Assembly (NCBI GenBank): GCA_034928305.1
Contig: JAYFOZ010000002.1
Span: 434,001-498,000, forward strand
Reading direction: 5' to 3'
DNA: 64,000 nucleotides
From: Methanomassiliicoccaceae archaeon
Lineage (GTDB): Archaea > Thermoplasmatota > Thermoplasmata > Methanomassiliicoccales > Methanomethylophilaceae
The position numbers were made by a program, and so were the translations under genes. Of the stretch, positions 47,206 to 64,000 are shown one piece after another. The notes under the pieces are model-generated. The model was not told where the DNA came from, did no database searches, and saw only the letters and a program-made list of their open reading frames with translations. Every line of letters begins with the position of its first letter. Within the stretch, counting starts at the first letter, position 1.

Positions 47206-47474
47206 GCATGTACAGAAAGGAACCCTTTGCGACGGGGAAGAGACCCTTTGCGACCGAAACACGGGAAAGGAGCGATAAGGACAGGCCCGGACTATTCCCG
47301 ATGCCACCGTGCCCCGTCTGCGGATCCCGCGGTGTCATCGAGGGCGTGAGTCCCCGGTTGAGCATCACATTCTATTCCGCAAGATGCACAGAGTGCTCGT
47401 ACCGTTACAAGTTCTTCCGGAAGAAGAGGTCGCTCACGCTCGCGAGGAAGATAGGATGGGATGATAGAGAATGA
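47202..47474 (+). CDS. Small zinc-ribbon protein
   Basis: A 90-residue protein with CPVCGSRGVIEG and CTECSYRYKFF, a C-x2-C ... C-x2-C pair that probably binds one zinc ion. The basic tail could contact nucleic acid. The first 30 residues are charged and repetitive (EPFATGKRPFATETRERS). It overlaps the recombinase stop by four bases and the next gene by four, so it is part of the same transcript. Confidence 0.55.
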   Translation: MSMYRKEPFATGKRPFATETRERSDKDRPGLFPMPPCPVCGSRGVIEGVSPRLSITFYSARCTECSYRYKFFRKKRSLTLARKIGWDDRE

Positions 47475-47791
47475 CCGCCCCGGACAAGATGGAACGCAAT
47501 TGGATCCTCGACGCGGGGACTGTTCAGGCGCTGTCGATCACCAGACTGTGGCTGCCGCCCGATCTGACGTATGCGGATATCCTGCGCATGTCGACCACGA
47601 TGCTGTTCGAGGAAATCGACAGGGTCTGCATGAAGGAAGGCGTTGGAGTCAACGAGGCGATCCATCTGATGTTCGAGAGGTATTCGAAGACATCCGTGCC
47701 TATCGAGATCAAGGTCAATTTCACACCCGGTCCGGGAAGGAACGGGAAACAAACCGATTCAGAAAAAAACAAAGGAGACAAGTCACAATGA
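47471..47791 (+). CDS. Unknown 106-residue cassette protein
   Basis: A mainly helical protein (ADILRMSTTMLFEEIDRVC, NEAIHLMFERYSKT) with a low-complexity polar C-terminal tail. The helical pattern loosely recalls small DNA-binding or plasmid-maintenance proteins, but no family can be named. Overlaps both neighbours by four bases (ATGA type). Confidence 0.45.
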   Translation: MTAPDKMERNWILDAGTVQALSITRLWLPPDLTYADILRMSTTMLFEEIDRVCMKEGVGVNEAIHLMFERYSKTSVPIEIKVNFTPGPGRNGKQTDSEKNKGDKSQ

Positions 47792-47844
47792 TAACGAAAT
47801 GCACTGAGAACAAGAAGACAAGTTACAAGGAGGGATCCGCGTGA
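47788..47844 (+). CDS. 18-residue micro-ORF
   Basis: MITKCTENKKTSYKEGSA, preceded by AAAGGAGA and overlapping the previous stop. Its last codons contain the AAGGAGGG ribosome site of the following GTG gene, and its stop overlaps that start (GTGA). It may act only as a translation-coupling leader. Confidence 0.35.
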   Translation: MITKCTENKKTSYKEGSA

Positions 47845-48020
47845 GTCCGGAATTCGATTTCTGGGAAAGATCCGAAGTGATTCCGACGAAGAATGAGATC
47901 GAAGTGGTATCGCGCTGCATCTTCCTGGGCGAGCACGGGATATACACCCATCCGAGTTCGGAGTTCACAATTTGTCCAGGAGAAAAGGAGAGTTGCAATC
48001 GCAGATATTCGAAGAGTTGA
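47841..48020 (+). CDS. 59-residue cassette protein, possibly cut short
   Basis: GTG start seven bases after AAGGAGGG. The product contains FDFWERSEVIPTKNEIEVV, SRCIFLGEHGIYTHPSSEF and a final CPGEKESCNRRYSKS. Two cysteines lie in the last 15 residues. It is the last frame of the cassette, and the sequence changes character right after it, so the gene may have been truncated when the adjacent module was inserted. No family recognised. Confidence 0.45.
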   Translation: MSPEFDFWERSEVIPTKNEIEVVSRCIFLGEHGIYTHPSSEFTICPGEKESCNRRYSKS

Positions 48021-48032
48021 ACGTCCAACTAT

Positions 48033-48060
48033 CCCCACGCTTTTTCTATCCAGCGTGGGG
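48033..48060. terminator. Strong hairpin between the cassette and the cyclase-like gene
   Basis: CCCCACGC (48033-48040) pairs with GCGTGGGG (48053-48060). The 12-base loop includes TTTTTC. It stands between two convergent stops (48020 and 48069) and probably ends both transcripts. It also marks a change in base composition. Confidence 0.55.
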
Positions 48061-48068
48061 GAAACAAC

Positions 48069-48935
48069 TTACTTCTTATCATCACGACGGACGTCCAATC
48101 TCTTCAATCCTGATTCGGTTCTGATTGTGCATGACAGATGTTTCTTCATGCGCATGTGTTCGCACCCATTGTTATAATTGTCAATGATCCAAGACAGTTT
48201 CATCCTGTTACGTTCTTCTCTGATGAAATCTGTATTGGAATTTGCATTCTCAACCACTTTCAAGATCGAATCGTCTATTTTACTCAGGCAATCCATCAAT
48301 TCACATTCTTCCGATGACGGCTCATCTTGGAAATTCGGTTCAAACCATAACATCGGACGATAATAGTCGAGGTATCTCCAACCATCCGCATCTTTGAGGA
48401 AGAAGTATTCTACCCTCATATGATCCGTGTGATCTTCGTCTATCGATGCGAGTATCTCATCGAATGTGTCATCACCGATGATCATACGTGGATTTTTTGC
48501 CTCTTTGTTTTCCATCTCATAGGCATCGATGAGAGCAGGACCATAAACACAATCATCATCGATATACAGGTCTCCGATCGTGAATGAACCGCGCGTCAGG
48601 ACGTTGAATTCCCATAGAAGCACGCGTTGAAGTTCCGCTATCTCTCTGAAGAAGCTGACATGAAACATATGGTGTGGGATGATCTTTTTTTCTGGATCCC
48701 ATTTCATGCAGATGATGAAGTTGTCCGAGAAGATCTTCGTCCTGATGCGCGGTATCATCGAGGGATCGTAATCCTTGCTCTCTCTTTCGATTTTCTTTAT
48801 CCTTTCCACCGTGGCCAAGGTCGTTTTCAGGAATTCATCGACGAGTTCCGGATGGAGTCTTATCTTGTCGCGATAACCTAGGATATCCATATATGCGACC
48901 AGGTATTTTTCGACAGAGGGTTCATTTTCAGACAT
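48069..48935 (-). CDS. Class III nucleotide-cyclase-like protein of unknown function
   Basis: A 288-residue soluble protein. AYMDILGYRD (D17) and KIFSDNFIIC (D71) have the spacing and setting of the two metal-binding aspartates in class III cyclase folds. The following LLWEFNVLTRGSFTIGDLY and YGPALIDAYEMENKEAKNPR match the core of a widespread family usually annotated as hypothetical. Whether it makes a cyclic nucleotide is unknown; transition-state residues are not obvious. It is transcribed towards the recombinase cassette and shares a 209-base upstream gap with the BREX operon. Confidence 0.6.
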   Translation of the reverse strand: MSENEPSVEKYLVAYMDILGYRDKIRLHPELVDEFLKTTLATVERIKKIERESKDYDPSMIPRIRTKIFSDNFIICMKWDPEKKIIPHHMFHVSFFREIAELQRVLLWEFNVLTRGSFTIGDLYIDDDCVYGPALIDAYEMENKEAKNPRMIIGDDTFDEILASIDEDHTDHMRVEYFFLKDADGWRYLDYYRPMLWFEPNFQDEPSSEECELMDCLSKIDDSILKVVENANSNTDFIREERNRMKLSWIIDNYNNGCEHMRMKKHLSCTIRTESGLKRLDVRRDDKK

Positions 48936-49038
48936 AATGGCGTTAGGATATCACTATTCAAATCTTTACAGATTGTCGTTCCTTTGCTGTTCCAGATTTA
49001 TTTATCAGATGCCGAAGTTTGCATTAAATCGTTGTGAA

Positions 49039-49096
49039 TCGTGTTGTTTATTAGACAGATTGTACGTTGAATTTGTTCAAAATGTGTCGTGTTGTT
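49039..49096 (+). promoter_or_regulatory. Repeated TCGTGTTGTT upstream of BREX
   Basis: TCGTGTTGTT occurs at 49039-49048 and 49087-49096, 48 bases apart, in the gap between the cyclase-like gene and brxA. An AT-rich TTATTAAATT (~49112-49121) lies ~25 bases before the brxA ATG and may be its TATA box. The direct repeats could be operator sites. Confidence 0.35.
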
Positions 49097-49144
49097 CTCG
49101 AATCAGCATTATTATTAAATTGAGGCAACAACATTCAACAAAAG

Positions 49145-49747
49145 ATGGGTTCTGTTCTTCATTATTCAGCGGCAATGCCTGCAACTCCATTTGCTTTCCC
49201 TGAGACCAAATTGGTAGCACGGCTGATGCTGGATTCCGATGATAGATCAGTCGTGAAACAAGTGGTCCATGATAACAATCTTCTGCAGGTGAAGACCGAC
49301 AGCAATGAGGAGAAGATCTTCAACTATGCATATGGCCGGATGAGTCAATTATCTGATGAACTGAAACGTATAATCGTTTCCGGCGATGAATCCGATGGAA
49401 GATTCGTGAATCTTGTTTCGATCATGAAGTGGGATGCATTGTTCATGGATTTCGTGGTCGAAGTCTACAATGACAGATTGATCAACAAGAATCCGATAAC
49501 CGACTATGATATCATGTCCTATTTCGAGAGGAAGGGGCGTGAGGACCCAAACGTTGCTTCCTGGAAATATGTGACCGTGTACAAATTAAGAAGACTCTAT
49601 GCACGTGTCCTTTTCGAAGCTGGATTGCTGAAGTCGTCGACAGGGAGCAGGGAGATATGCACACCGTATATCGGACGTTCAACTATAGATGCGCTGTGCG
49701 ACGAAGGATACGGAACTTACATTAGCGTTACACTGGGAAGAAGATGA
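49145..49747 (+). CDS. brxA: BREX protein BrxA (DUF1819)
   Basis: A 200-residue small BREX protein, first gene of the six-gene type 1 order. ETKLVARLMLDSDDRSVVKQ, ISIMKWDALFMDFVVEVYND-like central helices and LRRLYARVLFEAGLL match the BrxA family. The fold is known to be helical and DNA-binding in bacterial examples. Transcription is probably leaderless from a TATA box ~25 bases upstream. The stop overlaps the brxB ATG. Confidence 0.88.
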   Translation: MGSVLHYSAAMPATPFAFPETKLVARLMLDSDDRSVVKQVVHDNNLLQVKTDSNEEKIFNYAYGRMSQLSDELKRIIVSGDESDGRFVNLVSIMKWDALFMDFVVEVYNDRLINKNPITDYDIMSYFERKGREDPNVASWKYVTVYKLRRLYARVLFEAGLLKSSTGSREICTPYIGRSTIDALCDEGYGTYISVTLGRR

Positions 49748-50343
49748 AGATACTTGGAATAGACGAGAGGCTGAACAGGATCAAGGATGTCATCATCAAC
49801 GATCCGTTCTTCGGGGGCAAATCATTGAGCAGCGGCACCGGAGGGTATATCTTCGATTATGATCCGGAAGATGAACTCGTCGTCAGGGAATTCGTCAAGA
49901 ATTTCAAGGACAGGAAGGACCTCGGTTTCGATGTCCAGGAATTCGATCTCTTCGAGATCATGATTGGGTATCTCCAGGAACAGGGCTATTTGGAGACTGC
50001 GTTCGAATTGGAAGAGGAATGCCGCAACGAGAAGGAAGGCATAGGGTACATGATACGCGCTATGGCCGATCTGTTCCAGGCTGACAGTCAGAACGACATC
50101 TTCATTGATTATATTCAGAAACATGCTGTCAAAGGCAATGTGCTATTCATCACGGGTGTCGGAAAATGCCATCCGTTCATACGTTCGCATAAGATACTGA
50201 ATAACTTCGACAGCAAATTGAACGGCGTCAAGACCGTCCTGTTCTACCCGGGGGACTACAACTCGGATGAACTGAAACTTTTCGGAACGATTCCCAGTGA
50301 GAACTATTACCGTTCCATGAAACTTGTAGAAAGGAGTGAATGA
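49744..50343 (+). CDS. brxB: BREX protein BrxB (DUF1788)
   Basis: A 199-residue protein, second in the operon. Characteristic features are the early FDYDPEDELVVREFVK, the EFDLFEIMIGYLQEQGYLE core and the C-terminal FITGVGKCHPFIRSHKILNN and VLFYPGDYNSDELKLF segments. The last pair is the family's phosphate-loop-like region. BrxB is required for BREX function but its activity is unknown. Overlaps brxA by four bases. Confidence 0.88.
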   Translation: MKILGIDERLNRIKDVIINDPFFGGKSLSSGTGGYIFDYDPEDELVVREFVKNFKDRKDLGFDVQEFDLFEIMIGYLQEQGYLETAFELEEECRNEKEGIGYMIRAMADLFQADSQNDIFIDYIQKHAVKGNVLFITGVGKCHPFIRSHKILNNFDSKLNGVKTVLFYPGDYNSDELKLFGTIPSENYYRSMKLVERSE

Positions 50344-50345
50344 TC

Positions 50346-53300
50346 ATGTCAAAAATAGGGGAGATGTTCGAGAAAGATATCAGCAGGCCGATGAACCCGG
50401 TCATCAAGGTTAGCGATCAGAATGATGAGAATGTGATATTCCAGGAGCTTGACGAGTACGTGGTCACACAGGAGATCGATGAGAATCTGGAGAAGTTCTA
50501 CAAAGGTATCGCCGATGGCATGAAGACCAACACCGATGCTGTTGGCGTCTGGATCTCTGGTGATTTCGGAAGCGGTAAATCCCATTTCCTGAAGATACTC
50601 TCATTCCTTCTCAAGAACAGTAAGATCCGCGACAAGGAGGCCATAACGTATCTTCAGAACAAGGTGTCCGAGGCAGTATATTCGTATATGCAGACTATCG
50701 GAAGGAAGAATGTCGAGACGGTCCTTTTCGATATCGATGCCGAGAGCAAGGAAGGCCAGAATGCGGACAATCTCGTCCAGATCTATTTGATGGTCTTCAA
50801 CAGGATGCTCGGTCTGAGTACCGTCGCATCCGTCGCGGAGATGGAACGTCATATCATCCGGGAAGGGAAGTACGATCTCTTCAAATCCAAATATCAGGAG
50901 ATCTCCGGAAAGACATGGGAATTTGACAGGACCAAGCCTGCATTTGTCAAGCCCAAGATCAAGGCCGCATTGGTGGCCGCGGGTCTTTACAATGAATCAG
51001 ATGCCACCGACGTCGCGGATACCGCTACGAAAAAGCTCGAGGTCAGTGTTAGGGACTTCGCAAAACTGGTGAAGGAACATTGCGCGGAGCAGGGGAAGGA
51101 TTACACATTGTTCTTCCTGGTCGATGAGGTCGGACAGTTCATCTCGGGCAACACACAGCTGATGTTGAAGCTTCAGACAATCACCGAGGAACTCGGTGTT
51201 GCCTGCCATAGACAGGCTTGGAATATCGTCACCAGTCAGGAGGATATCGATCAGGTCGTTGCCGGAGTCAATAACAAGGATTTCTCCAAGATCCAAGGAC
51301 GTTTCGGTGTTCGTGTGAAGATGTCCTCGTCGGATGTGAAGGAGGTCATCGAGAAGAGGATACTTCTGAAGAAGAGCAATTATGTCGATGAGTTGAAAGC
51401 ATACTATGATGTGAATCGCGATGCCATTCACAACAAGCTCAACTTCGACAACGGTGTGAACATCAGGCTGTACAAGAACAAGGAGGAGTATTCCAACACA
51501 TATCCGTTCGTCCCGTATCAGTATCAGATGCTACAGACCATGCTCACCCAGCTGAGGAACAAGAGCAGAGCAGGAAAGAACATCAGTAACGCAGCACGTT
51601 CGATGCTGAAGACCTTTAGGGATACGGTCGTCGAGTACAAGGATAACGATTCTTTGTCGGTGATCCCGATGTACGCGTTCTACGATTCGCTCACACCGGA
51701 GTTGGACAGTCCGACACTGCAGGCGTTCTACGATGCGAGCAAGAACGATATGCTCGATGTCGATTTCGACCTCAATGTTCTGAAGACACTGTTCCTTGTG
51801 AAATATTACGACGGATTGACAATATCTGTCACTAACATCACATCGATGATGGTATCTTCGTTCGACGAGAACAGGATCACCCTGAAGAAGAAGGTCGAGG
51901 AAGCGTTGGATCGCCTCGTTACTCAGAATCTTGTGCAGAGGAATGGGGACACATACGTTTTCCTTACGAACGTGGAGCAGGAGATAAATCTTGAGATCAA
52001 GAGGGAATCCGTAGATGTAGGCAAACGTATCCAGGAGATATCCCGTATCGCATTCGGAGAGATCCTTGGACTTAGCGGTAAATACAAGTATGACAGCGAT
52101 CACCCGTATCCGTTCAACAGAATTGTCGACGGGGAGAACGTCGATGGTACGAGTTACGAATTGGGTCTTGCCATATCCACACCGGCAAGTAGAGTGGATC
52201 CTGCCACGTTGACCATGGAATCCATCAATTCTGTCGTTCTCGAATTGCCGGGCGACGATCGTGTGATCATTCAATGCAATGAATACATCTCGACCGAGAG
52301 TTATCTTTGCAAGAATATGAGCTCCGACCTCCCCAAAGGGAAGAGGGCGATACTGGAAGCCAAGGAATCCGAGCTTAAGGACATGAAGGACAGATTCAGA
52401 GAACTGCTTTCCGATGCACTTCAGTCTGCCAAGATATACATCAACGGTTCACCGGTGCAGATCAACGAATCCAAGCCGGGAGCTCGTGTCGAAAAGGCCA
52501 TGAGTCAGCTGATCGAGGCCACATACAGCAAAATGGATTACATGAGGAATCCGAAGAGCAAAACTATCGTGGAACAGATCTTCAGGAACAGATCGATAAT
52601 CCCATTCGATAAGGCCTGCGGAAGCGAAAGGAACGCCATTGATTCTGTTGTTGATTATATTTCTGAACAGGCGAAGATCAACGCTACCGTCAGGATATCG
52701 AATGTGATGGAGAAGTTCAGGAAGAGACCGTACGGGTTCAATGACGTGGATATTCAATGGATATTGGCGATCCTGTTCCGTCACAATAAGATCGGGCTTG
52801 TGTTCGAAGGAGTATCATATGATGGTAAGAAGGTGGATGCAGACAAAGGTATCGATCTGATAACCAGGGCCAAGAACTACGATCGCGTGGAGATCAAATT
52901 GCGTGAAAGCGTCTCGTCGGCATCGATCAACAAGGCCGCCGATATCTTCAAGGAGATACTGGCGAAATCACTGCAGCTTGATGAGAGTGCATTGGTCGGT
53001 GCGATCAACAGCGGTTCGAAAGAGCTGATGCACGAGATCGATGGATATCTTGATAAGATAAGGTCGAACCCCAAATACCCCGGAAAGGAACAGCTGGATG
53101 CAATGCGCTTGATGCTCAACAGCACTGCGAGCATGGGTTCTCCGGACATATTCCAATATATCGACCACAACGAGGATGCATTCAGGAATCTTCGTGACAA
53201 TCTGGACAGCCTCAGAGGGTTCTTCGCAGAGGACAGCCCCAGAAGAAGGTTGTTCGACAGAGGCCTCTCATGTCTTGCCGCGTATACCAAGGATGAGAAT

Positions 53301-53834
53301 TACGTGGTCGGCGAGATCGTTCAGACAAGATCTGATATCGAATCGGCGATGAACTCCGAAGGTCTGAAGGATCTCCATAAACTGAACGGGTTGTGCGATT
53401 CATTCGAATCTGAATTGAATGCTTTGATTGATGCTGCAAAGCATGGCGAGAAGGAAAAGATGGCAGCATTCAAAGAGATGTATTCTTCGAAATTCGCTGA
53501 TCATCAGGACCTCGCAGCAGAATTGGACAATCTTTTCGAAGATTCAATGAGTAAGATGGACCCCGTGAGATCGATATCGGAGCTGTGTGAGATACCTAAT
53601 GGTTTCAACATAAAGGCAAAAAACGTCGTTGCGAAGATCCCTAAAAAGCAGATTCCGCAAGATCCGAGGCAGCAACCTGACAAAGCGGTGCCAAAGAAAG
53701 GATCGGTCTATGCAAGTGTCATTTTCTCGGGAACCGAAGTGAATTCCGAAGAGGATATCGAGAAGATATTGAACTCGGCCAGAGAGAAGATGAAAGAGAA
53801 ACTGAAGAACGGTCCGTTTAACATCAATTGGTGA
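50346..53834 (+). CDS. brxC: BREX ATPase BrxC
   Basis: A 1162-residue AAA-type ATPase. WISGDFGSGKSHFLK gives Walker A at residues 72-79, with LFFLVDEVGQFIS as Walker B. The large remainder is helical. The family resembles origin-recognition-like ATPases and is thought to power the complex that distinguishes self from phage DNA. The ATG at 50346 is eight bases from AGGAG; an ATG two codons earlier is only two bases from it. The length is typical of type 1 BrxC. Confidence 0.95.
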   Translation: MSKIGEMFEKDISRPMNPVIKVSDQNDENVIFQELDEYVVTQEIDENLEKFYKGIADGMKTNTDAVGVWISGDFGSGKSHFLKILSFLLKNSKIRDKEAITYLQNKVSEAVYSYMQTIGRKNVETVLFDIDAESKEGQNADNLVQIYLMVFNRMLGLSTVASVAEMERHIIREGKYDLFKSKYQEISGKTWEFDRTKPAFVKPKIKAALVAAGLYNESDATDVADTATKKLEVSVRDFAKLVKEHCAEQGKDYTLFFLVDEVGQFISGNTQLMLKLQTITEELGVACHRQAWNIVTSQEDIDQVVAGVNNKDFSKIQGRFGVRVKMSSSDVKEVIEKRILLKKSNYVDELKAYYDVNRDAIHNKLNFDNGVNIRLYKNKEEYSNTYPFVPYQYQMLQTMLTQLRNKSRAGKNISNAARSMLKTFRDTVVEYKDNDSLSVIPMYAFYDSLTPELDSPTLQAFYDASKNDMLDVDFDLNVLKTLFLVKYYDGLTISVTNITSMMVSSFDENRITLKKKVEEALDRLVTQNLVQRNGDTYVFLTNVEQEINLEIKRESVDVGKRIQEISRIAFGEILGLSGKYKYDSDHPYPFNRIVDGENVDGTSYELGLAISTPASRVDPATLTMESINSVVLELPGDDRVIIQCNEYISTESYLCKNMSSDLPKGKRAILEAKESELKDMKDRFRELLSDALQSAKIYINGSPVQINESKPGARVEKAMSQLIEATYSKMDYMRNPKSKTIVEQIFRNRSIIPFDKACGSERNAIDSVVDYISEQAKINATVRISNVMEKFRKRPYGFNDVDIQWILAILFRHNKIGLVFEGVSYDGKKVDADKGIDLITRAKNYDRVEIKLRESVSSASINKAADIFKEILAKSLQLDESALVGAINSGSKELMHEIDGYLDKIRSNPKYPGKEQLDAMRLMLNSTASMGSPDIFQYIDHNEDAFRNLRDNLDSLRGFFAEDSPRRRLFDRGLSCLAAYTKDENYVVGEIVQTRSDIESAMNSEGLKDLHKLNGLCDSFESELNALIDAAKHGEKEKMAAFKEMYSSKFADHQDLAAELDNLFEDSMSKMDPVRSISELCEIPNGFNIKAKNVVAKIPKKQIPQDPRQQPDKAVPKKGSVYASVIFSGTEVNSEEDIEKILNSAREKMKEKLKNGPFNINW

Positions 53835-53838
53835 TTTG

Positions 53839-56800
53839 ATGGATAAAGGTGCAATCGAGAAATTCGCGATCTCTTCAAGGGTCAAACTGAGACAATCCGT
53901 CGAACAGAGGATGGCAGCGTTGGGGATCACTGCCGACGGTGTCACGGCATCAGCTCAAGTTATAGGGGATGTCGTGATCCTCAACCTGTCGAACGGTATG
54001 GAGACACGTTTGACGAAAGACGAATCAGGACATCGCGACCAGCTCATCAAAGAGGTCGGCAGGGCTGGATACGACAACGTCATAGAATCGGTTGCATACA
54101 CCTGGTTCAACAGACTGATCGCCATCAGATACATGGAGGTCAACGATTTTCTTCCGACACACGTTCGCGTTCTCTCTTCCACGATCCCTGGGAGGAAAGA
54201 ACCCGACCTCATATCGCAATGTCTCCAGGTCGATCTTGGATACTCACCTGGTGAAAGGGATCGCATCATCAAATTGAAGGATGCCGAGGAATCAGACAGG
54301 CTGTTCGGACTATTGTTCCTTATCCAATGCAGGGAGTTGAACAAGATACTTCCCGAATTGTTCACCATCACAAAGTCCTATGAGAACCTCCTTCTGAAGA
54401 TTTCTTTCACGGATCCGAACAGTGTTGTGAGAGATCTTGTGGATACGATTCCCGAGGATGATTTCAGAGATGCTGTCCAGATCATCGGGTGGATGTATCA
54501 ATATTACAACTCGGAGTTAAAGGATGATACCTTTGCCAAGTTGAAGAAGAACGTCAAGATATCCAAGGAACGTATCCCTTCAGCCACGCAGCTGTTCACG
54601 CCGGATTGGATCGTCCGTTACATGGTGGAGAATTCGGTTGGGAGGATTTGGCTGGAAGGTCACAAGGACGACTCACTCAAAGCAGGGTGGAAATATTATC
54701 TGGACGAGGCTAAGCAGGAACCGGAAGTCGTCAAACAATTGGAATCATTGAGAACTGAAAGAAAGAAACTCACACCCGAAGATATCAGAGTCATTGATCC
54801 ATGTATGGGCAGCGGACACATCCTCGTCTATGCATTTGATGTTCTGATCCAGATCTACGAATCGTATGGTTACAGTAGATCCGAAGCAGCGATCTCGATC
54901 GTGGAGAAGAATCTCTATGGATTGGATGTCGATGATCGTGCATATCAACTCGCATATTTTGCGGTGATGATGAAGGCACGTCAGTACAATCGCAATGTAT
55001 TTGACAAGCATATATCGAACAACATCCATGCTATCGTTGAATCGGATGTCATCACAGATGATGTGTTGAAAGGATATGGCTCTAAGATGGGTTCCATGGA
55101 CAGATATGTTGCATTGTCAGACATTAATTATCTGATTACTCAATTCAAGAATGGAAAGACCTATGGCTCCTTGATAACACTTAAGACCGTCAGATGGGAC
55201 TTCATCGATGCTTTCCTAAAGGATCGTTCTATTTCGGTATACAATTCTCCGGAGATAAATGAGAGGCTCAACGAATTGGTTGCTATTTCGAAGGTTCTTT
55301 CGCAGAAATACGATGTAGTTACTACAAACCCACCCTATTCAAAAAAAGCTTATCAAAGTGAGGAATTAGGGCAATATTTAGCAGGTAAGTACTCTGATTA
55401 TTCTCCTGATTTATATTCTACTTTCATAAAAAGGTGCAGTATTTTTTTAAATAATCATGGTTATTGCGGGATGATTACTCAGACTGGCTTTCTTTTCAAG
55501 GCACAATTCAAGAAAATGCGTGCTTCTTTGAGATGTGGCATATCATTCAATAGCATTGTACGTTTAGGTCCAGGTGCGTTTGAAGAAATTCAAGGAGAGG
55601 TAGTACAATCTGTCATGTTTGTATTTTGTAATGGGATTATTAATAATAATGTTGTGTATGTAGATCTGTTTTCTGTAAAAGGAAGTGCTAGTAAAGAGAA
55701 TATTTTTTTACAACATGATTCGAGTTTTGAGTCAATAAAAAGTCCAATATGTGATGATTTGGATAAAAATGCACCCTTATTTGAATCCTGTTATCATCAA
55801 AGTATGTCTATTATATCGAAGATTGGATGTCAACCAGGGTCCGAATTGGTTTTTTTATGGTGGGAAGTTGAGCACAACAATCCAATATACGTTCCATACA
55901 ACAAGGGTGGAAAATATCGCAAATGGTATGGAAATCAGCTGTGGGTGTTGAAATACGGATTAGACGGCAATTGTGTATATCGGCATGGTGGGCAGACGTC
56001 AAATAAAGAATATTATTTTAAAGAGTCAATTAGCTGGACACGCGTATCATCCAAAATGAATATGAGGTATTATCCAACTGGTTTTGTTTTTGATAACACA
56101 TCACCGTGTATTTTTAATGATATTTTTTATTTATTGGGGTATTATAACTCTCCCGTATCTGAATATGTCCGGATAACAACATATGCTGGAAATAAAATCG
56201 AATCTGGACATGTTATTGCAATTGCACCACCCTATCATGTAGATATATCACAAAGGGAGCACATTGAATCTTTGGTGAAAGATTGTATATCAATATCAAA
56301 ACGTGATTGGGATTCCAGAGAATTATCGTGGAATTATCAAAAATGTCCATTATTGGGACAGTCTACGATAAAAGAAGGGTATAAAAAATACAATCTTGAA
56401 ATGAATGAGACGATATCAACTTTACATAAGAAGGAAAATGAGATTTATGAGTATTTTATAGATCAATTGACCTCAGATGAATACATATTTAGTTCTGATG
56501 ATATACAAAAGTACGATTATGGCTCAAAGATCATTCAAATGAATCAAGCAGAATCAATTAAACAATTATTATCTTATGCTGTTGGATGTATGTTTGGGAG
56601 ATATTCGTTGGATGTTGACGGCCTGGTATATGCCGGTGGTCAATGGGATTCTTCAAAATATACTAAGTTTACAGCCGATGCAGACAATATCATCCCATTG
56701 AATGAAGATGAGTATTTTGGAGACGATATTGTAACTAGGTTCATTGAGTTCATCAAAATAGTATTCGGTAAAGACTTCTTAGAAGATAACCTGAAATACA

Positions 56801-57255
56801 TTGCCGATTGCCTTGAGGTCAAAGGTTCAGGATCGTCGCGTGATAAGATACGTACTTATTTCCTGAAAGATTTCTACAAAGATCATTTGAAAATGTACAG
56901 TAACCTTCCGATATACTGGCTTTTTGATAGTGGAAAGGAGAATGGATTCAAGGCTTTGGTCTACTTGCACCGTTATGACGAGAATCTCATAGTGAAAATG
57001 CGTCAGAACTACCTTCTCCCGATGCAGCGCAGGTACATCGATCATATCGGGAGGGAAAAGGATCAGGTCAAACGTACTTCCATTCAAAAGAAATTGGATG
57101 AGATCGAACGTTACGATCTTGCCATGGAGCTGTATGCTTCCAATCCTGTTTCAATAGATCTCGACGATGGTGTGAAGGTCAATTACGCAAAATTCCAGAA
57201 CATAGAGAACAGCAAATCCTCTAAGGACAAGATAAACCTACTTTACAAGATCTGA
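53839..57255 (+). CDS. pglX: BREX adenine-specific DNA methyltransferase PglX
   Basis: An ~1138-residue N6-adenine methyltransferase that marks the host BREX site. The SAM-binding motif I is DPCMGSGH (320-327) and the catalytic motif is TNPPYSKKAY (N497-Y500). The N-terminal third and the end (after ~56640) have the codon use of the neighbouring brx genes. The middle, about 55320-56630, is much richer in A and T with different codons and covers the target-recognition region. The ATG at 53839 follows GGTGA. There is no sign of phase-variable repeats. Confidence 0.94.
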   Translation: MDKGAIEKFAISSRVKLRQSVEQRMAALGITADGVTASAQVIGDVVILNLSNGMETRLTKDESGHRDQLIKEVGRAGYDNVIESVAYTWFNRLIAIRYMEVNDFLPTHVRVLSSTIPGRKEPDLISQCLQVDLGYSPGERDRIIKLKDAEESDRLFGLLFLIQCRELNKILPELFTITKSYENLLLKISFTDPNSVVRDLVDTIPEDDFRDAVQIIGWMYQYYNSELKDDTFAKLKKNVKISKERIPSATQLFTPDWIVRYMVENSVGRIWLEGHKDDSLKAGWKYYLDEAKQEPEVVKQLESLRTERKKLTPEDIRVIDPCMGSGHILVYAFDVLIQIYESYGYSRSEAAISIVEKNLYGLDVDDRAYQLAYFAVMMKARQYNRNVFDKHISNNIHAIVESDVITDDVLKGYGSKMGSMDRYVALSDINYLITQFKNGKTYGSLITLKTVRWDFIDAFLKDRSISVYNSPEINERLNELVAISKVLSQKYDVVTTNPPYSKKAYQSEELGQYLAGKYSDYSPDLYSTFIKRCSIFLNNHGYCGMITQTGFLFKAQFKKMRASLRCGISFNSIVRLGPGAFEEIQGEVVQSVMFVFCNGIINNNVVYVDLFSVKGSASKENIFLQHDSSFESIKSPICDDLDKNAPLFESCYHQSMSIISKIGCQPGSELVFLWWEVEHNNPIYVPYNKGGKYRKWYGNQLWVLKYGLDGNCVYRHGGQTSNKEYYFKESISWTRVSSKMNMRYYPTGFVFDNTSPCIFNDIFYLLGYYNSPVSEYVRITTYAGNKIESGHVIAIAPPYHVDISQREHIESLVKDCISISKRDWDSRELSWNYQKCPLLGQSTIKEGYKKYNLEMNETISTLHKKENEIYEYFIDQLTSDEYIFSSDDIQKYDYGSKIIQMNQAESIKQLLSYAVGCMFGRYSLDVDGLVYAGGQWDSSKYTKFTADADNIIPLNEDEYFGDDIVTRFIEFIKIVFGKDFLEDNLKYIADCLEVKGSGSSRDKIRTYFLKDFYKDHLKMYSNLPIYWLFDSGKENGFKALVYLHRYDENLIVKMRQNYLLPMQRRYIDHIGREKDQVKRTSIQKKLDEIERYDLAMELYASNPVSIDLDDGVKVNYAKFQNIENSKSSKDKINLLYKI

Positions 57256-57264
57256 GGTGATCGT

Positions 57265-59790
57265 TTGGCTCAAGATAACATCGAAGGAAGGATCAAAGGT
57301 CGTTTCGAAGCGACCAAAAGACTCGATACAACATCTCAGAGGATCGTATTCTGGATGGACGAAACCGGGGAGTTCAAGGATTCCATAGATTCTCTGGATC
57401 TCGGAGATATCAAGATACTGAAGCTTGACAGATACAATTCTTTCAAGGTGAAATATATCCTCGAACACGATGATCTTGAATCGAGGCATCTTGTCTATGT
57501 GCCATATTCTTTACCGAAAGACGAGAACAACATCTTGGCCGATATGATTCACTACACCAATCCACCATTCTGTGCGGATAAGCCGTCTTTACTATGTGAA
57601 GATCTCAGGATCGATATCAAGAATGTTGATGTTGTCAAGAGGCATATCAAATTCTTAAACAGCAACGAACGCAGGAGAAAGTATTTGAATTACGATGTTG
57701 ACGGAAAGAACCCCGATTCCATCGTTTTGGGGATCATGGCCACAGTAATGAATTCCGATGCATCCGATTTCAAACAAATTCTGATGGATGTTCTAAGATC
57801 ATTCTCGGAAGATACCGAATCAGGGATCGAATCGACTGCTCTGGACGGATTCGAGACATATGATCTGACTGAACCGTTCTGGGAACAATGTAAAAAAGAG
57901 TTCGGAATAGAAGATCAGACCATCGGTGCATTGGTCCGTATATTCTTCATATCCTATGCATCATGTAAGATACAATTGGACCCGAACAAGACGATCGCGC
58001 CGCACATCTCCAGTAAGAGCGGGAAGATAACCACATTCATAAATGAGATGTACAACAACTCAAACTACAGCGAATCGGCAGAATTCTTATCCGACTGGGT
58101 AGCGGACAAGATGAAGCTCGATTTCTATTTCGATTCGTTCGATCTCAAAGCGCTTGGCGATTCGGACGCATTCAGATGCATCGATGAGATCATCATCAAT
58201 CGCCTCATTGGTCAGATGAGCAGTACCTGCAAACCACTAGATGCATCAGATGTTGCATTGTTGCATAAGAGGGAGACGCTGCACTATTACAATGATTACG
58301 AATCACAATATAATGCCATATTGTTCGGACACGATCTTCTTGATAATACATTGAATTTCTCATTAGATCTCTCTGCAACGAAAAACCCCGCAGATATCAT
58401 TGATAATTATGCTTCGAAATGGTATTGCATCGATCGTTGCTATCGCGGGTTCGTCTTCAATACGGACAAGATTGAAGAAAAAACCCCAGATATGGAGAGA
58501 TTCATTGATTTCATTGAGAACACATACAACAACAAATTCCTCAACGAGATCTCCGAGAGACTGTCTTCGATGGTTGAGTCCTATGCAGATCTTCCGGGAG
58601 TCAAACAAACCGGATTCTATGATAAATACGTCGAGAAAACCGATCAGGCCACGGTCGTCATCATATCGGATGCGTTCAGGTATGAGTGCGCTACCGAGTT
58701 GCGTGAAGTGCTTGACAAATCGTCAAGGGTCAAGGAACAAAAACTCGACCACATCATATCCACTCTTCCGTCGATAACAAAGTTCGGCATGGCCGCCTTA
58801 TTGCCTAACAACGGATTGGAGGTTTGTCCCGGAGACAATTATTCTGTCAGGATCGATGGTATGAATACCAACATGGACGATCGCGAAGTCGTCCTCAAAG
58901 CAAGGAATCCTGCATCGGTGGTTCTCAAATACAAAGATGCCATTTCGATGAAAACACAGGATCTCAGAGATGCTTGTAAGGGAAAACGTGTGGTCTATAT
59001 CTACCACGATATAATAGACGCGACCGGCGATAAACCTCAGAATGAGATGAGGACATTCGTCGCGTGCAGGGATGCGGTGGACGAGATCAGAAGATTGATC
59101 GAGATAGTCACCAACAGATTGAGCTACACACGTTTCATAGTGACATCGGATCATGGTTTCATTTACAGAAGGAAGAAGATCGAGGAACTCGATAAAATCC
59201 TGTTGCCCAGTCATGCATCAGCCGAGAAGCGTTACATATTGAGCGATGTCTCATGTGATTTCATTCAGACACAGGAGCTGTCTCTGGATTACCTCGGTGT
59301 GGAAAATGGAGAGTTCTACGTTTCCGTTCCGACGACCAGTGGCATATTCAAGGTGCCCGGCGCAGGTCAGAATTTCGTCCATGGCGGTATGTCTCCGCAG
59401 GAGATTGTCGTACCTGTTCTGGAAGTACATACAAATAAGGGAAAGGTCAAGGAAGAGTACGTTGGATTGAAGGCCGTTTCCAAACCTACGATCAAGAAGA
59501 GTAAACCAAATTTGGGATTCTGGCAGGAAAACCCTGTATCCGACAAATATCGTGAGGCGACCTATGAACTCTGGTTCGAGAATGAGGATGGACAGCGCGT
59601 CTCCGATGTTCAATCGATTATTGCAAACAAGGTTGTAGGTCAGGAGATGGAACACCACGTTCGTTTCACGCTCAGTATGAACAAGGGAACAGCATATCTT
59701 AACATCAAGAATAAAACGGACGATGACGTTCCGACTGTGAAGGAAGAATATCAGGTGCAGATCATGTTTACGGATTTAGGTGGGTTCTGA
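57265..59790 (+). CDS. pglZ: BREX phosphatase-superfamily protein PglZ
   Basis: An 841-residue protein of the alkaline-phosphatase superfamily. The metal-site segments are VIISDAFRYE (D469) and VTSDHGFIYRR (D629-H630), with the family's preceding LPSITKFGMAALLP. It starts with TTG, placed by the ribosome site GAGGTGATC two bases upstream and by the conserved N-terminus. PglZ interacts with PglX and is essential for BREX. Its stop overlaps the brxL ATG. Confidence 0.94.
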   Translation: MAQDNIEGRIKGRFEATKRLDTTSQRIVFWMDETGEFKDSIDSLDLGDIKILKLDRYNSFKVKYILEHDDLESRHLVYVPYSLPKDENNILADMIHYTNPPFCADKPSLLCEDLRIDIKNVDVVKRHIKFLNSNERRRKYLNYDVDGKNPDSIVLGIMATVMNSDASDFKQILMDVLRSFSEDTESGIESTALDGFETYDLTEPFWEQCKKEFGIEDQTIGALVRIFFISYASCKIQLDPNKTIAPHISSKSGKITTFINEMYNNSNYSESAEFLSDWVADKMKLDFYFDSFDLKALGDSDAFRCIDEIIINRLIGQMSSTCKPLDASDVALLHKRETLHYYNDYESQYNAILFGHDLLDNTLNFSLDLSATKNPADIIDNYASKWYCIDRCYRGFVFNTDKIEEKTPDMERFIDFIENTYNNKFLNEISERLSSMVESYADLPGVKQTGFYDKYVEKTDQATVVIISDAFRYECATELREVLDKSSRVKEQKLDHIISTLPSITKFGMAALLPNNGLEVCPGDNYSVRIDGMNTNMDDREVVLKARNPASVVLKYKDAISMKTQDLRDACKGKRVVYIYHDIIDATGDKPQNEMRTFVACRDAVDEIRRLIEIVTNRLSYTRFIVTSDHGFIYRRKKIEELDKILLPSHASAEKRYILSDVSCDFIQTQELSLDYLGVENGEFYVSVPTTSGIFKVPGAGQNFVHGGMSPQEIVVPVLEVHTNKGKVKEEYVGLKAVSKPTIKKSKPNLGFWQENPVSDKYREATYELWFENEDGQRVSDVQSIIANKVVGQEMEHHVRFTLSMNKGTAYLNIKNKTDDDVPTVKEEYQVQIMFTDLGGF

Positions 59791-61889
59791 TGGATAACAA
59801 CGCGACCATAGTGGCTGGATTCAACCAGCTGTTGCCGGTGTTGTCCAAATACGTGACATCATCATTATATGAGCAATATGGTGATGAATGGTGGAACGTC
59901 GCAGTTCTCAATAAATTCGATGACAGGCAGAAATGGGACCTTCCGCAGCAAGGATCTTTCGACGAATGCGTTGCCAGTCTTGATATCGCGCGTGTGATAA
60001 TTCTTCTTGATATCAATTGGAATGAGACGTTTAGGGACAAAGTGGTCCGTGAAGGCCCTGGTCTCATGAAAGATTCACGCAGTTGGGCAAAAGAGCTGCT
60101 GAACGTCCGTAACAAATCCGCGCATATTGGAGGTAATGATTTCTCCGACAGGGATGCCAGAAGGGCACTTGATACGATGGAACGTCTGTGCGAATGTTTT
60201 GATAAGTATGTTGCCAAAAAGATCAATGTGCTCTACGAGAGCATCGGAAGAAGCGAGATGGCTCCTGCCACCAATCCTGTCGATGGCTCTGCATCGATTG
60301 ACGATCCTGTTTCTCCGATAGCCGAATCAGTTGTTGAAAGCAATCTTGTCTTTGAGGATGTCAGAGACAAACCGATCAAATCCGTTTCTAGATCGTCCGA
60401 TCACATTGGGTCCGTCACTATAGATGTCGATCGTTTGACGGATGCATTCGATGGATGTATCGTAAGGAAGGATCTGACGAAGAAAATCAAGGAGGGAGCT
60501 AACGTCCCGATATTCGTTCTCGAATATCTTCTCGGGATGCATTGCTCTTCCAGTGATCAGGCAGAGATTGATGAAGGCCTCCAAGTGGTCAAGAAGAAGC
60601 TCGCCCGCTTGTACATACGTCCAGATGAGGCCGAGAGGATCAAATCCAACATTCGTGAGGCCGGAGAGGGATATTCGATAATCGATAAAGTGTCTGTAAC
60701 ACTCGATTTCAAGAAAGATATCTATGTCGCCACATTCCTCAGTTTGGGTTTGAAGAACGTACCAATCGACAGATCAATGGTGGTCTCTAATCCAAGGCTC
60801 CTTTCCGGCGGTATCTGGTGCATCATCACATTCAATTACTCGTATCTTGAAGATGACAAACTTGTCAATCCTTTCAAGATCACACGTCTTTCACCTATTC
60901 AAATGCCATTCGTGGATGTGAATGAATTCATTCATCAACGTAAGAACTTCACGAAGGATGAGTGGATCGCGTTGATGCTCAGATCCACCGGCATAGAACC
61001 AGATAACATCGATGAACGCACGAAATGGTTGCTTCTCGCACGCATCATGCCGTTGGTCGAGAACAACATAAATGTATGTGAGCTCGGCCCGCGCAGCACT
61101 GGTAAATCTCATGTTTACAAGGAGATTTCTCCGAGCAGCATACTTGTGTCAGGGGGTCAGGCATCTGTTGCCAGTTTGTTCTACAATATGTCGTCCCATA
61201 CGCCGGGCCTGGTGTGCAATTGGGATGTTGTGGCATTCGACGAGGTCGCCGAGATCAAGTTCAAGGACAAGGATGCGATAACGATCATGAAGGACTACAT
61301 GGCCTCGGGATCGTTCTCCAGAGGCGGGGAGCAGCTTGAAGGCAAAGCTTCCATGGTGTTCGTAGGCAACATCAATGAGAACATCAACACTCTTCTTCTC
61401 CAGGCAAGTCTATTTAAACCATTCCCAGTGGGGATGAACGAGGATACGGCATTCCTCGACAGATTCCATTGTTACATCCCGGGATGGGAGATCGAACCGT
61501 TCTCTCCGAGATTATTTACTAACGATTATGGATTCATATGCGACTATTTCGCTGAGATCTCCAGAGAATTGAGGAAGATGCAGTATTCCAATGTAATCGA
61601 CAAGTACTTCACTCTTGACGAGAGCCTGAAGCAGAGGGATGTGACATCGATCAAGAAGACGGTCTCTGCAATGATGAAGATCATCTACCCCAATGGTGTA
61701 GCAGACAAAGGCGAGATTCGCGAGATATTGGAATTCGCAATGGAGATGAGATCCAGGGTGAAAGAGCAGCTCAAGCGTATTCAACCTGATGGAGAATTCT
61801 CTGAAGCTAGATTCATCTATCACGACTTGGAGACTGAAGAATCAAGGGAAGTATTCGTTCCAGAATGTGAGGAACTTTCTAGAAGATAA
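59790..61889 (+). CDS. brxL: BrxL, Lon-like BREX effector with an N-terminal Swt1-type HEPN domain
   Basis: A 699-residue protein in two parts. Residues ~1-150 are a HEPN domain of the Swt1 group: PVLSKYVTSSLYEQYGDEWW, FDECVASLDIARVIILLDIN and LLNVRNKSAHIG, in which R107-x4-H112 is the HEPN catalytic pair, then RALDTMERL. After a ~60-residue linker, BrxL begins (FDGCIVRKDLTKKIKEGANV). It has Walker A GPRSTGKS (433-440), WDVVAFDEVAEI and FLDRFHCYIPGWE, and ends in a short tail without a Lon protease domain. BrxL is a DNA-translocating AAA complex. The added domain suggests RNA cleavage or a scaffold. Confidence 0.85.
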   Translation: MDNNATIVAGFNQLLPVLSKYVTSSLYEQYGDEWWNVAVLNKFDDRQKWDLPQQGSFDECVASLDIARVIILLDINWNETFRDKVVREGPGLMKDSRSWAKELLNVRNKSAHIGGNDFSDRDARRALDTMERLCECFDKYVAKKINVLYESIGRSEMAPATNPVDGSASIDDPVSPIAESVVESNLVFEDVRDKPIKSVSRSSDHIGSVTIDVDRLTDAFDGCIVRKDLTKKIKEGANVPIFVLEYLLGMHCSSSDQAEIDEGLQVVKKKLARLYIRPDEAERIKSNIREAGEGYSIIDKVSVTLDFKKDIYVATFLSLGLKNVPIDRSMVVSNPRLLSGGIWCIITFNYSYLEDDKLVNPFKITRLSPIQMPFVDVNEFIHQRKNFTKDEWIALMLRSTGIEPDNIDERTKWLLLARIMPLVENNINVCELGPRSTGKSHVYKEISPSSILVSGGQASVASLFYNMSSHTPGLVCNWDVVAFDEVAEIKFKDKDAITIMKDYMASGSFSRGGEQLEGKASMVFVGNINENINTLLLQASLFKPFPVGMNEDTAFLDRFHCYIPGWEIEPFSPRLFTNDYGFICDYFAEISRELRKMQYSNVIDKYFTLDESLKQRDVTSIKKTVSAMMKIIYPNGVADKGEIREILEFAMEMRSRVKEQLKRIQPDGEFSEARFIYHDLETEESREVFVPECEELSRR

Positions 61890-61903
61890 CAGTCGTGGTA
61901 AAA

Positions 61904-63058
61904 ATGTCAGTTGAAATAAAGTTAATTGATAGGGAGGATTCGCTACTTGGAAGTAATGTAAGTTTACGTGTTAATAATAAGCGGATCGATGGATTCCAAT
62001 TGTCTGAAAAGAGTAATTGTACAAAATTTGAGCGTGGCGTTTATTCTAAACTCGGTGAAAACAAGATACGTGAATATGCAATCGACATCACTCCATCAAG
62101 GCTTGATGAGCTCGATGCAGATAGAGGTGAATTGGATAAATTTACAAAAGATAAATTTTCCAAATTGAGAAATAGTAATGAAATGAACATGATGGTATTT
62201 CGTGTTGATGTTTCGAAGGAAAAGTTGGAAGAGCGGCACATATCTATGCTTTCAAATCTTTTGCAATTATCTGGAAATGATATCATTGTACCGCCGTTTG
62301 TGAAGATATCAAAAGAATCCAAGTTTGATGTTGATCAGTATTTGAGTTACTACAGGACATTTGAAGACTATTTAGGATCGACAATCTCTTCAATAGCATG
62401 TCCGATTCCTGGGCAATCTAGTACAAAAGATATTAGGCAAATCATGAACGAATTAGGTGGTAAACATTGTCAGATTTTTGTTGTTGATTTTGATGGGCAA
62501 AAGGTGATAAGCCCTTCAAATGAGATTTCGTTACGTACGGTTATGGGCGGTATTCGTAATCTTGAAAAAGAATATGGTGAGGGTAGTTTTTTCTACGGTT
62601 TCGATGCACGCCCTAATCCTAAAAATGGTACAGACAAGGATTTTATCGAATCACAGATACTAGCATCTGTTGGATTAAATGCAGTGGGACCTAAAAGGAA
62701 AAGGACTGTACTCCCGCCAAATATAGCAAAATTATTGGGTGAATCCGATCCATTGGACGTTTGCAAGTTATTTTGTGAAGATGACTATCGTCAATACTCT
62801 ATTCGTAGCGGTCGTGTCACCGAAGATTTTTCAACATTTGTTGATGATATGTGGGGGATAGATTATTCTACACTAAAATATGATAAAATGCGGGAATTAA
62901 CAGCCGCATTCAATCATAATGCAAGATCAGAAAATATTCCTAATATCAATCAATCCATTTCTGAAAATACACTTGTTGATTTAATTCAATCCAAGAATAC
63001 ACCCGAATATGTAATGAAAGTAGCGAAGAAGGTTGCTAAGAAAGTTACTGGCGTGTAA
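61904..63058 (+). CDS. Unknown BREX-linked protein, 384 residues
   Basis: It follows brxL by 5-14 bases on the same strand, so it is probably transcribed with BREX. A GTG start at 61895 is also possible. Segments NDIIVPPFVKIS, HCQIFVVDFDGQKVIS and GSFFYGFDARPNPKN alternate strands and helices in a way that could fit a barrel. The lysine-rich C-terminus (VAKKVAKKVTGV) suggests nucleic-acid contact. No family, catalytic motif or membrane segment recognised. Base composition is clearly more AT-rich than the brx genes, indicating a separate origin. Ends 14 bases into the convergent gene. Confidence 0.55.
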   Translation: MSVEIKLIDREDSLLGSNVSLRVNNKRIDGFQLSEKSNCTKFERGVYSKLGENKIREYAIDITPSRLDELDADRGELDKFTKDKFSKLRNSNEMNMMVFRVDVSKEKLEERHISMLSNLLQLSGNDIIVPPFVKISKESKFDVDQYLSYYRTFEDYLGSTISSIACPIPGQSSTKDIRQIMNELGGKHCQIFVVDFDGQKVISPSNEISLRTVMGGIRNLEKEYGEGSFFYGFDARPNPKNGTDKDFIESQILASVGLNAVGPKRKRTVLPPNIAKLLGESDPLDVCKLFCEDDYRQYSIRSGRVTEDFSTFVDDMWGIDYSTLKYDKMRELTAAFNHNARSENIPNINQSISENTLVDLIQSKNTPEYVMKVAKKVAKKVTGV

Positions 63059-63245
63059 CTTCGCCTGTTTTTGGATCCACGATAGTAATGTAGATCCTTT
63101 TTCCGTCGAAGTGTGCATAAACAATTTTTTTATTTATGAGGCCCGATTCAGTTGTAGATACAGTACATTTTTTAAACTGATTTAATTCGAGGTTCAGTTT
63201 CTTTTTTTCCAGCTTTATCGGAGATTCTAATTGCACGTCAAACAT
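63045..63245 (-). CDS. Unknown 66-residue protein, second of a small pair
   Basis: Starts at ATG 63245, overlapping the end of the preceding gene by eight bases. The product is basic and strand-rich (SPIKLEKKKLNLELNQFKKC, IVYAHFDGKRIYITIVDPKT). The frame is open further upstream only within the neighbour. With the 203-residue gene it forms a two-gene unit that faces the BREX operon. No family recognised. Confidence 0.45.
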   Translation of the reverse strand: MFDVQLESPIKLEKKKLNLELNQFKKCTVSTTESGLINKKIVYAHFDGKRIYITIVDPKTGEVTRQ

Positions 63246-63849
63246 GTCGGGCCTCCGTAATCGTAGCTTTACCGTTTTTATATACAACTGTGTACTCGAC
63301 TCCGTTTTCCGACACGATATGTATTTCACTATTCGATTCAATGGGAATTGAAAAAGAATCGACTCTTTCTGTTTTGACTAATTTGTCTTTAATGAGGGAT
63401 TTACTAGTTAAACTGGGGTACAGTCTGTATACAAGTTTGATTATCTCATCTGTACTCAAATTACGTAAATTCGAATTCAATTCAGAACAAATGGAAAAAA
63501 TACCTTTGTATTTTTTAGATGCAGCTTCAAGTATTTTTTCTCCTTCTAACGTCAATTTAGATCCTTTTGAAGATGATGAAACAGGTTTAATCAGGCCCCA
63601 ATTTCTCAATTCAGTAAGAGAATCATCTAAGTTTTCTGAAAATGGACCAAAATGATTGGCATCAAAATCAAAATCATCATCAAGGTCAGAATCTGCAATT
63701 ATCTTGTCTGCGAGAAATGCTAATTTATGGATACGTAGTGCGTGATCGATTTTATACTGACTCGAAGTGCCAATTAACATTATTGCAATAAGGGTAACAT
63801 CCGAGTAATCATCGAGTTCCACATCCTCATCCATGCGGTTGTGATACAT
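63238..63849 (-). CDS. Winged-helix/Panacea- or YwgA-like protein
   Basis: A 203-residue soluble protein. HALRIHKLAFLADKIIADSD, ANHFGPFSENLDDSLTELRN and LTLEGEKILEAASKKYKG follow the layout seen in DUF4065 (Panacea) and YwgA-like proteins: helix, GPFS-type turn, helix, wing. Some Panacea proteins are antitoxins, so with the overlapping 66-residue gene this could be a toxin-antitoxin-like or regulatory pair. The C-terminal 60 residues are unassigned. AT-rich composition. Nothing further is visible from 63850 to the window end. Confidence 0.5.
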   Translation of the reverse strand: MYHNRMDEDVELDDYSDVTLIAIMLIGTSSQYKIDHALRIHKLAFLADKIIADSDLDDDFDFDANHFGPFSENLDDSLTELRNWGLIKPVSSSSKGSKLTLEGEKILEAASKKYKGIFSICSELNSNLRNLSTDEIIKLVYRLYPSLTSKSLIKDKLVKTERVDSFSIPIESNSEIHIVSENGVEYTVVYKNGKATITEARHV

Positions 63850-64000
63850 TTCAAATAAATATTACCTGTGGTAATTTTTTGTTTCATGTTATTTCAATGT
63901 TTGTATTTCTTAGAAGTTATTTTTCTATGGAAAAAATGTGCTGGATATTTATGATAATGAGATTTTCAAAATCACATTATTGTCATCGTTCATAATCATA

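Follow-up and report, generated by a model that had tools for sequence, protein, structure and literature searches.

A divergent class III cyclase-fold protein and its candidate module partners on either side of a BREX operon in a Methanomassiliicoccaceae archaeon

Introduction

What is the role of a small cyclase-like gene that is transcribed away from a BREX operon, and does this gene belong to the BREX system, to a module of its own or to neither? The question is raised by a locus of a Methanomassiliicoccaceae archaeon of the phylum Thermoplasmatota (assembly GCA_034928305.1). The stretch of DNA analysed here by computation, referred to as the window, comprises 64,000 nucleotides (contig JAYFOZ010000002.1, positions 434,001 to 498,000), and all coordinates are those of the window unless stated otherwise (Table 1). 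A first-pass annotation, made from the DNA letters, had pointed to D17 in AYMDILGYRD and D71 in KIFSDNFIIC as the two metal-binding aspartates of a class III cyclase, followed by RGSFTIGDLY, which starts at R115, and to an upstream region shared with the BREX operon. Both observations are borne out, the gene and brxA being divergent. A scan of the shared region for sigma-70 promoters and terminators, which does not cover archaeal promoters, gave no more matches than shuffled sequences (3 promoter-like matches versus a mean of 2.8).

The cyclase-like gene is a real open reading frame, starts with ATG and is present as a single copy in the 1.34-Mb assembly. Its product has no match in Pfam, NCBIfam or PADLOC at E-values of up to 1; it belongs to PHROG 23933 (E 5.1e-19 over residues 9-257), a family for which the library gives neither function nor context.

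Table 1. Features of the locus (positions in the window)
Feature	Position	Strand	Remarks
Low-GC stretch	48000..63999		contains the cyclase-like gene, BREX, orf387 and orf203; 34-49% GC per kb
Cyclase-like gene	48069..48935	-	288 aa; heads the three-gene set; class III cyclase-fold protein with D17 and D71 as metal-type aspartates
Intergenic region, cyclase-like gene/brxA	48936..49144		209 bp between the divergent start codons
BREX operon brxA-brxB-brxC-pglX-pglZ-brxL	49145..61889	+	lies between the cyclase-like gene and its partners; Pfam, PADLOC
orf387	61895..63058	+	387 aa, homologous to the ~370-aa third gene in archaeal cyclase operons; begins 5 bp behind brxL
orf203	63238..63849	-	203 aa; homologue of the second gene in archaeal cyclase operons

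Fold and Active Site of the Cyclase-Like Protein

An AlphaFold2 model was built from an alignment of the window protein and its relatives (82 rows from 91 eligible sequences, nine long or weak ones being left out). The model reached a mean pLDDT of 87.5 and a pTM of 0.86, and its strands and helices follow the order E-H-H-E-E-H-E-H. Foldseek matched it to the PDB with an E-value of 2.7e-5, and 16 matches have E-values no higher than 0.001; of the 904 matches in all, the 50 listed are class III cyclases or entries titled or annotated as cyclase-like. VIA-align aligned it with Rv1625c (Z 13.9, 159 residues, rmsd 3.3), and all 50 matches listed are cyclases; PycC is not among these 50, which is evidence neither for nor against a relationship. 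In a viral structure library, the top match is a 'response regulator' (E 7e-4), and one protein with a guanylate cyclase domain was found at 0.012. Cyclases also account for 17 of the 18 PDB matches of an independent sequence profile at E up to 10, where individual E-values are weak. The top one is the C1 domain of adenylyl cyclase V (E 0.022), with both aspartates aligned, and a larger family profile found seven matches, all of them cyclases (best E 0.3). A class III cyclase palm, as the first-pass annotation had proposed, is present in the predicted structure, and for both fold and family this assignment is near certain.

Like class III cyclases (PF00211; for instance, Rv1625c and the mammalian AC5 C1 domain), the protein combines the palm, with its order of strands and helices and two aspartates, with an arginine in the RGG...G strand and a subsequent G....A...E motif. 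Unlike them, it has its own C-terminal helical part with the invariant-type residues K246 and W249, lacks the Asn/Arg pair discussed below and does not match PF00211 at E up to 1. The PF00211 model matches nothing elsewhere in the genome either; since it also misses the genuine PycC encoded there, it is blind to divergent members.

In an alignment of 15 diverse relatives, D17, L19, G20, D71, R115, G132 and E142 are invariant. A larger alignment of 115 rows (145 loci minus 26 duplicates and 4 short copies) contains D71 in every row and both aspartates in 112; the three rows without D17, one with arginine and two with gaps, all retain D71. Further conserved positions are R115 (113 rows), E142 (111 rows) and K246 (110 rows; 2 gaps). 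The conservation of D17 is partly selected for, because most rows came from scans with a pattern containing DILG; in the 24 rows obtained without that pattern, neither D17 nor D71 is ever missing. Neither of the two outcomes that the first-pass annotation had named as refuting its proposal, a fold lacking the palm or loss of the second aspartate in close homologues, was seen. The protein probably still binds two metal ions and a nucleoside triphosphate.

The transition-state residues of class III cyclases are an asparagine and an arginine, which we take to be positions G+4 and G+8 of the wG..VN.A.R motif of mammalian C2 domains. The corresponding residues of the cyclase-like protein are I136 and E140, and none of the 115 rows contains the Asn/Arg pair; the asparagine alone is present in 5 rows and the arginine in 13. 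Catalysis may therefore be lost or different. If it were lost, the protein would be a pseudo-cyclase whose fold and aspartates serve to bind a nucleotide or metal and which regulates a partner, be it a restriction-modification (R-M) system, BREX or a ParA-like ATPase, without forming a product. Two comparisons are consistent with this idea: the Foldseek matches listed include 6yii from Pseudomonas, by its title a 'class III adenylyl cyclase-like ATP-binding protein', and the best profile matches are mammalian adenylyl cyclase C1 domains, which require a C2 partner. However, both aspartates, R115 and K246 are strictly kept across many phyla, which suggests chemistry, and the genuine PycC of the same genome carries V and N at the aligned positions, so that absence of the pair is compatible with catalysis and with an enzyme, although the profile comparison behind this alignment falls short of significance. 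We regard a purely regulatory, nucleotide-binding protein as rather unlikely, though it ranks second among the readings considered, behind an NTP-using effector as a tentative best guess.

A similar substitution is described for the DUF2652 proteins, uncharacterised cyclase-like proteins of ~250 aa that are likewise stand-alone and have isoleucine in place of the cyclase asparagine (PMC4886424). In contrast to the cyclase-like family with its 13 of 115 rows, the mycobacterial set of DUF2652 proteins is reported to have a conserved arginine (Ramakrishnan et al. 2016, PMC4886424). Like all other Pfam models, that of DUF2652 fails to match the cyclase-like protein at E up to 1. cNMP cyclase domains, some of them inactive, have been reported in other conflict systems in the accessible part of PMC7159879, which would fit an effector as well as a pseudo-cyclase.

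Partner Genes in Related Archaea

The first-pass annotation had found no obvious effector adjacent to the gene and had recommended a search for recurrent neighbours of its homologues. It overlooked the usual archaeal partners of the gene, whose homologues in the window, orf387 and orf203, are located at the other end of the BREX operon. In three other archaeal genomes (G076, G021 and G072), the cyclase-like gene overlaps or abuts a gene of ~190 codons, which is followed on the same strand by a gene for a ~370-aa protein. G063 likewise has an orf203-type gene that overlaps the cyclase-like gene (HMM E 2.5e-18; not used to train the model), after which its contig stops. In this genome, a gene for a CARF-like/HTH protein (HFX_2341_N, E 1.1e-11; L024:1501-2235) extends into the start of the cyclase-like gene.

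By blast, orf203 matches the second operon gene with E-values of 5e-6 to 7e-5, and orf387 matches the ~370-aa operon proteins with 2e-11 to 1e-5. The ~190-aa partner is weakly winged-helix-like, as judged by weak family matches, and orf203 matches the PADLOC candidate family PDC-M19A (E 7.7e-10) and part of the DarG model (4e-6). orf387 has no match in Pfam, PADLOC, NCBIfam or PHROG, and none was found in plasmids or viral contigs. A single-sequence structure model of orf387 was unusable (pLDDT 42). A reading of orf387 as tRNA-guanine transglycosylase (TGT) was rejected, since the orf387-type profile finds no such PDB chain; the hint came from a weak match of one ~390-aa protein (Pfam TGT, E 0.049) of a third locus type, in which orf203-like genes accompany a ~390-aa protein without a clear relationship to orf387 (E 0.47).

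Among 151 related genomes, orf387 homologues are found in five (the window genome, G021, G072, G076 and G050), of which only G050 has no cyclase-like gene nearby. Orf203-type proteins are found in 18 of the 151, and of the 17 archaeal genomes with a cyclase-like gene, only 5 encode an orf203-type protein close to it. The three genes are spread over 15.8 kb of the window, and orf203 and orf387 lie on opposite strands. These points count against the module. As the partner homologues are found at the far BREX end, the three-gene set brackets BREX within one low-GC stretch. That the cyclase-like gene, orf203 and orf387 form a module in a few archaea is well supported.

An Alternative PIN-Like Partner

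The nearest orf203-type proteins elsewhere are encoded together with a PIN-like protein of ~180 aa and, convergently, a ~370-aa protein, which hhalign identifies as a homologue of orf387 (probability 98.9, E 1.6e-17). The PIN-like matches are weak, namely to DUF3368, which we take to be PIN-related (E 1.8e-5), in one protein, and to the PADLOC candidate PDC-S70 (8e-7) in another. These loci of the Thermoplasmatota resemble the cyclase operons in their two core proteins and differ from them in that the PIN-like protein replaces the cyclase and that the ~370-aa gene is convergent, whereas it is in line in the cyclase operons. They recur in the phylum (L184-L188, L194, L197, L209-L231) and may represent a conflict system of their own.

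A profile of both ~370-aa types has matches in 22 of the 389 genomes of the phylum. Within the 2.7-4.2 kb inspected at each of 23 orf387-type loci, an orf203-type gene occurs 19 times, a PIN-like gene 9 times and a cyclase gene twice, the cyclase count leaving out the window because its cyclase-like gene lies across BREX, outside the 4-kb locus. The four loci without an orf203-type match include one near a contig end (L219); of the 13 loci outside the training set of the orf203 model, 9 have an orf203-type gene. According to these counts, a two-gene core carries either a PIN-like or a cyclase-like third gene. The gene order would fit a toxin-antitoxin-like module, with an overlapping pair, a regulator-like partner and a putative effector gene that is swapped between loci, and it looks as if PIN-like and cyclase-like proteins fill one effector slot.

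The BREX Operon and the Low-GC Stretch

BREX does not belong to the cyclase module. The cyclase-like gene, orf387 and orf203 are all absent from three complete related BREX loci (G003, G016 and G011), whose proteins are 55-86% identical; two more are too truncated to be judged for the three genes. orf387 and orf203 were accordingly rejected as BREX genes, and the three complete loci do not bear out the cyclase-like gene as a core or regular accessory gene of BREX. In the BrxL protein of the window (59790-61889), the usual BrxL parts are preceded by a Swt1-like HEPN domain at the N-terminus (residues 10-135; PF18731, E 5.5e-21), and BrxL proteins of related operons are of similar length (703 aa).

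In the five kilobases before the low-GC stretch, the GC content is 54.5-58.7%. The last of these kilobases, 47000-47999, has 54.5% and the next, 48000-48999, has 43.1%; values remain low until the end of the window, so that BREX together with the cyclase-like gene, orf387 and orf203 resembles a single acquired island. No tRNA gene was found at 40000-64000, and the island ends have no tandem repeats and only four weak, chance-like families of direct repeats. A frame of 59 codons (47841-48020) ends at the GC drop and may be a gene that was cut by the arrival of the island. A small serine recombinase is encoded upstream of BREX (46255-47205), and a recombinase 42% identical to it is encoded ~2.3 kb upstream of brxA in G003 (G003:C8:169967-170629); such a recombinase may move the BREX cassette.

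Distribution and Bacterial Neighbours

The cyclase-like family is an old one, with a patchy occurrence and great diversity among its members (20-30% identity). A tblastn-type search detected the gene in 8 of 151 related genomes, its own included, and in none of the five remaining genomes of the genus, and a profile search found it in 14 of the 389 genomes of the phylum. Relatives are further encoded by 45 plasmid records (identity at most ~32% among the matches listed), 18 loci of viral contigs and contigs of GTDB genomes (87 relatives, of which 80 were kept); phage records contain none. One relative on an Agrobacterium plasmid directly follows a gene annotated as dsr1, a defence sirtuin (L009:2244-6828).

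Type I R-M genes are found within five genes of the cyclase-like gene in 13 of 117 non-redundant loci, and in 9 of these 13, Hsd genes flank it on both sides. The 13 loci include an archaeon (G146), and one locus (L129) has a piece of HsdS only. The nearest matches lie on the strand of the cyclase-like gene for HsdM in 13 of 13, HsdS in 14 of 14 and HsdR in 15 of 15 loci; the models for these counts derive from the set itself, and that for HsdR may also pick up other helicases. A scan of 76 tight same-strand neighbours, from 64 of the 117 loci, was compared with a control of 76 genes, taken from 550 distant ones in the same loci. Among the Pfam matches listed for the neighbours, AAA_31 (ParA-like) occurs 8 times, HsdS 7 times, N6_Mtase 5 times and HSDR_N 3 times; type I specificity models of PADLOC match 7 of the 76 among the matches listed, and in the control no family has more than two matches. 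A ParA-like ATPase is encoded directly before the cyclase-like gene in bacteria and on viral contigs (L104, L047, L046, L084, L044, L092, L137, L088), and a distant-mode search with the ParA-cyclase pair of Buttiauxella gave no match in E. coli genomes. In a tree of the 115 rows, many branches of which have low support, the R-M label changes 9 times, at least 5 of the changes being forced by well-supported branches, and the ParA label changes once. The R-M links thus arose repeatedly, and the ParA pair looks like one lineage.

The remaining 53 of the 117 loci have no tight same-strand neighbour, so many copies of the gene stand alone, which counts against a strict partner. Together with the patchy occurrence in the phylum and the absence elsewhere in the genus (five genomes), this would fit a passenger gene that was brought along by the island and is functionally unconnected with BREX or the two partner genes. 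Such a passenger would, however, hardly be expected to form overlapping three-gene operons in three other archaeal genomes and to be accompanied by the same partners across BREX in the window, nor does it sit well with the uniform orientation of the Hsd genes, and we consider this reading improbable.

Relation to Pycsar

The cyclase-like protein shares several properties with PycC, namely a stand-alone, short, class III-like protein, a defence setting and, according to the part of PMC11224242 that is accessible, two retained metal aspartates. The same genome also encodes a genuine Pycsar pair outside the window, ~333 kb from the cyclase-like gene (G000:C2, ~147863-149189; L199:6364-7690). It consists of the overlapping genes for PycC (225 aa, PADLOC E 1e-76) and PycTM (223 aa, E 8e-30). 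While the PycC models recognise this protein as a positive control, they match neither the cyclase-like protein nor 15 diverse relatives at E up to 1, and comparing the family profile with the genuine PycC gives E-values of 0.065 and 0.038, which are not significant. No PycTM or PycTIR effector was found among the nine window proteins scanned, no PycTM match in eight other genomes of the same family with a cyclase-like gene (G020, G021, G051, G063, G072, G076, G039 and G060), and no cNMP-binding domain PF00027 in the genome. Despite the common superfamily fold and the PycTM elsewhere in the genome, it is very improbable that the cyclase-like protein is a PycC that makes cUMP or cCMP for a Pyc effector, given the missing model match and the genuine PycC adjoining PycTM instead. 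The Pycsar-type signalling of the first-pass annotation is unsupported in the strict sense, and the comparison with Pycsar is an analogy rather than a membership.

Proposed Role of the Module

The cyclase-like gene is probably a defence component, as suggested by its adjacency to BREX, the partners at the far end of BREX and the bacterial relatives that are sometimes found inside R-M operons. Our preferred, still tentative explanation, to which we give somewhat less than even chances, is that a three-gene module, which has merged with BREX, uses a divergent class III cyclase-fold enzyme as its effector or as the source of a signal. The module would comprise the cyclase-like protein, an orf203-type protein as likely regulator or antitoxin and a ~370-aa protein as likely sensor or partner. 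After the merger, the cyclase-like gene would have come to lie divergently on one side of BREX, with orf387 as the last gene of the operon and orf203 behind it. In such a system, orf203 and orf387 would restrain the cyclase-like protein until infection or failure of the DNA-methylation defence triggers its release. Once freed, the protein might convert a nucleoside triphosphate to a nucleotide product or deplete the NTP pool, and growth would stop.

A broader version of this explanation is more doubtful. It is tempting to speculate that a defence or conflict module with a two-gene core uses either a PIN-like RNase or a cyclase-fold effector, that the gene order of the cyclase version was fused with BREX and that bacterial members entered type I R-M operons many times; two-metal NTP chemistry without the Asn/Arg pair would then give rise to a new nucleotide signal or an NTP-consuming toxin.

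No description of the family or the module was found in the literature searched, the scope of which did not extend to subscription papers and some preprints, and the available portions of PMC11224242, PMC13092281, PMC7159879, PMC12988326 and PMC4886424 do not describe them. New here are the three-gene archaeal operon, the partners bracketing BREX and the alternation of PIN-like and cyclase-like genes on a two-gene core. The genome itself is a clean test case, as a true Pycsar system and a non-Pycsar cyclase-like module are found together. If the proposed role holds true, a widespread family without a curated name, which is found in archaea, many bacterial phyla, plasmids and proviral contigs, would join nucleotide-signal or nucleotide-toxin immunity. 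Furthermore, nucleotide chemistry would be linked to DNA-methylation defences such as BREX and type I R-M systems, for which few second-messenger components are known.
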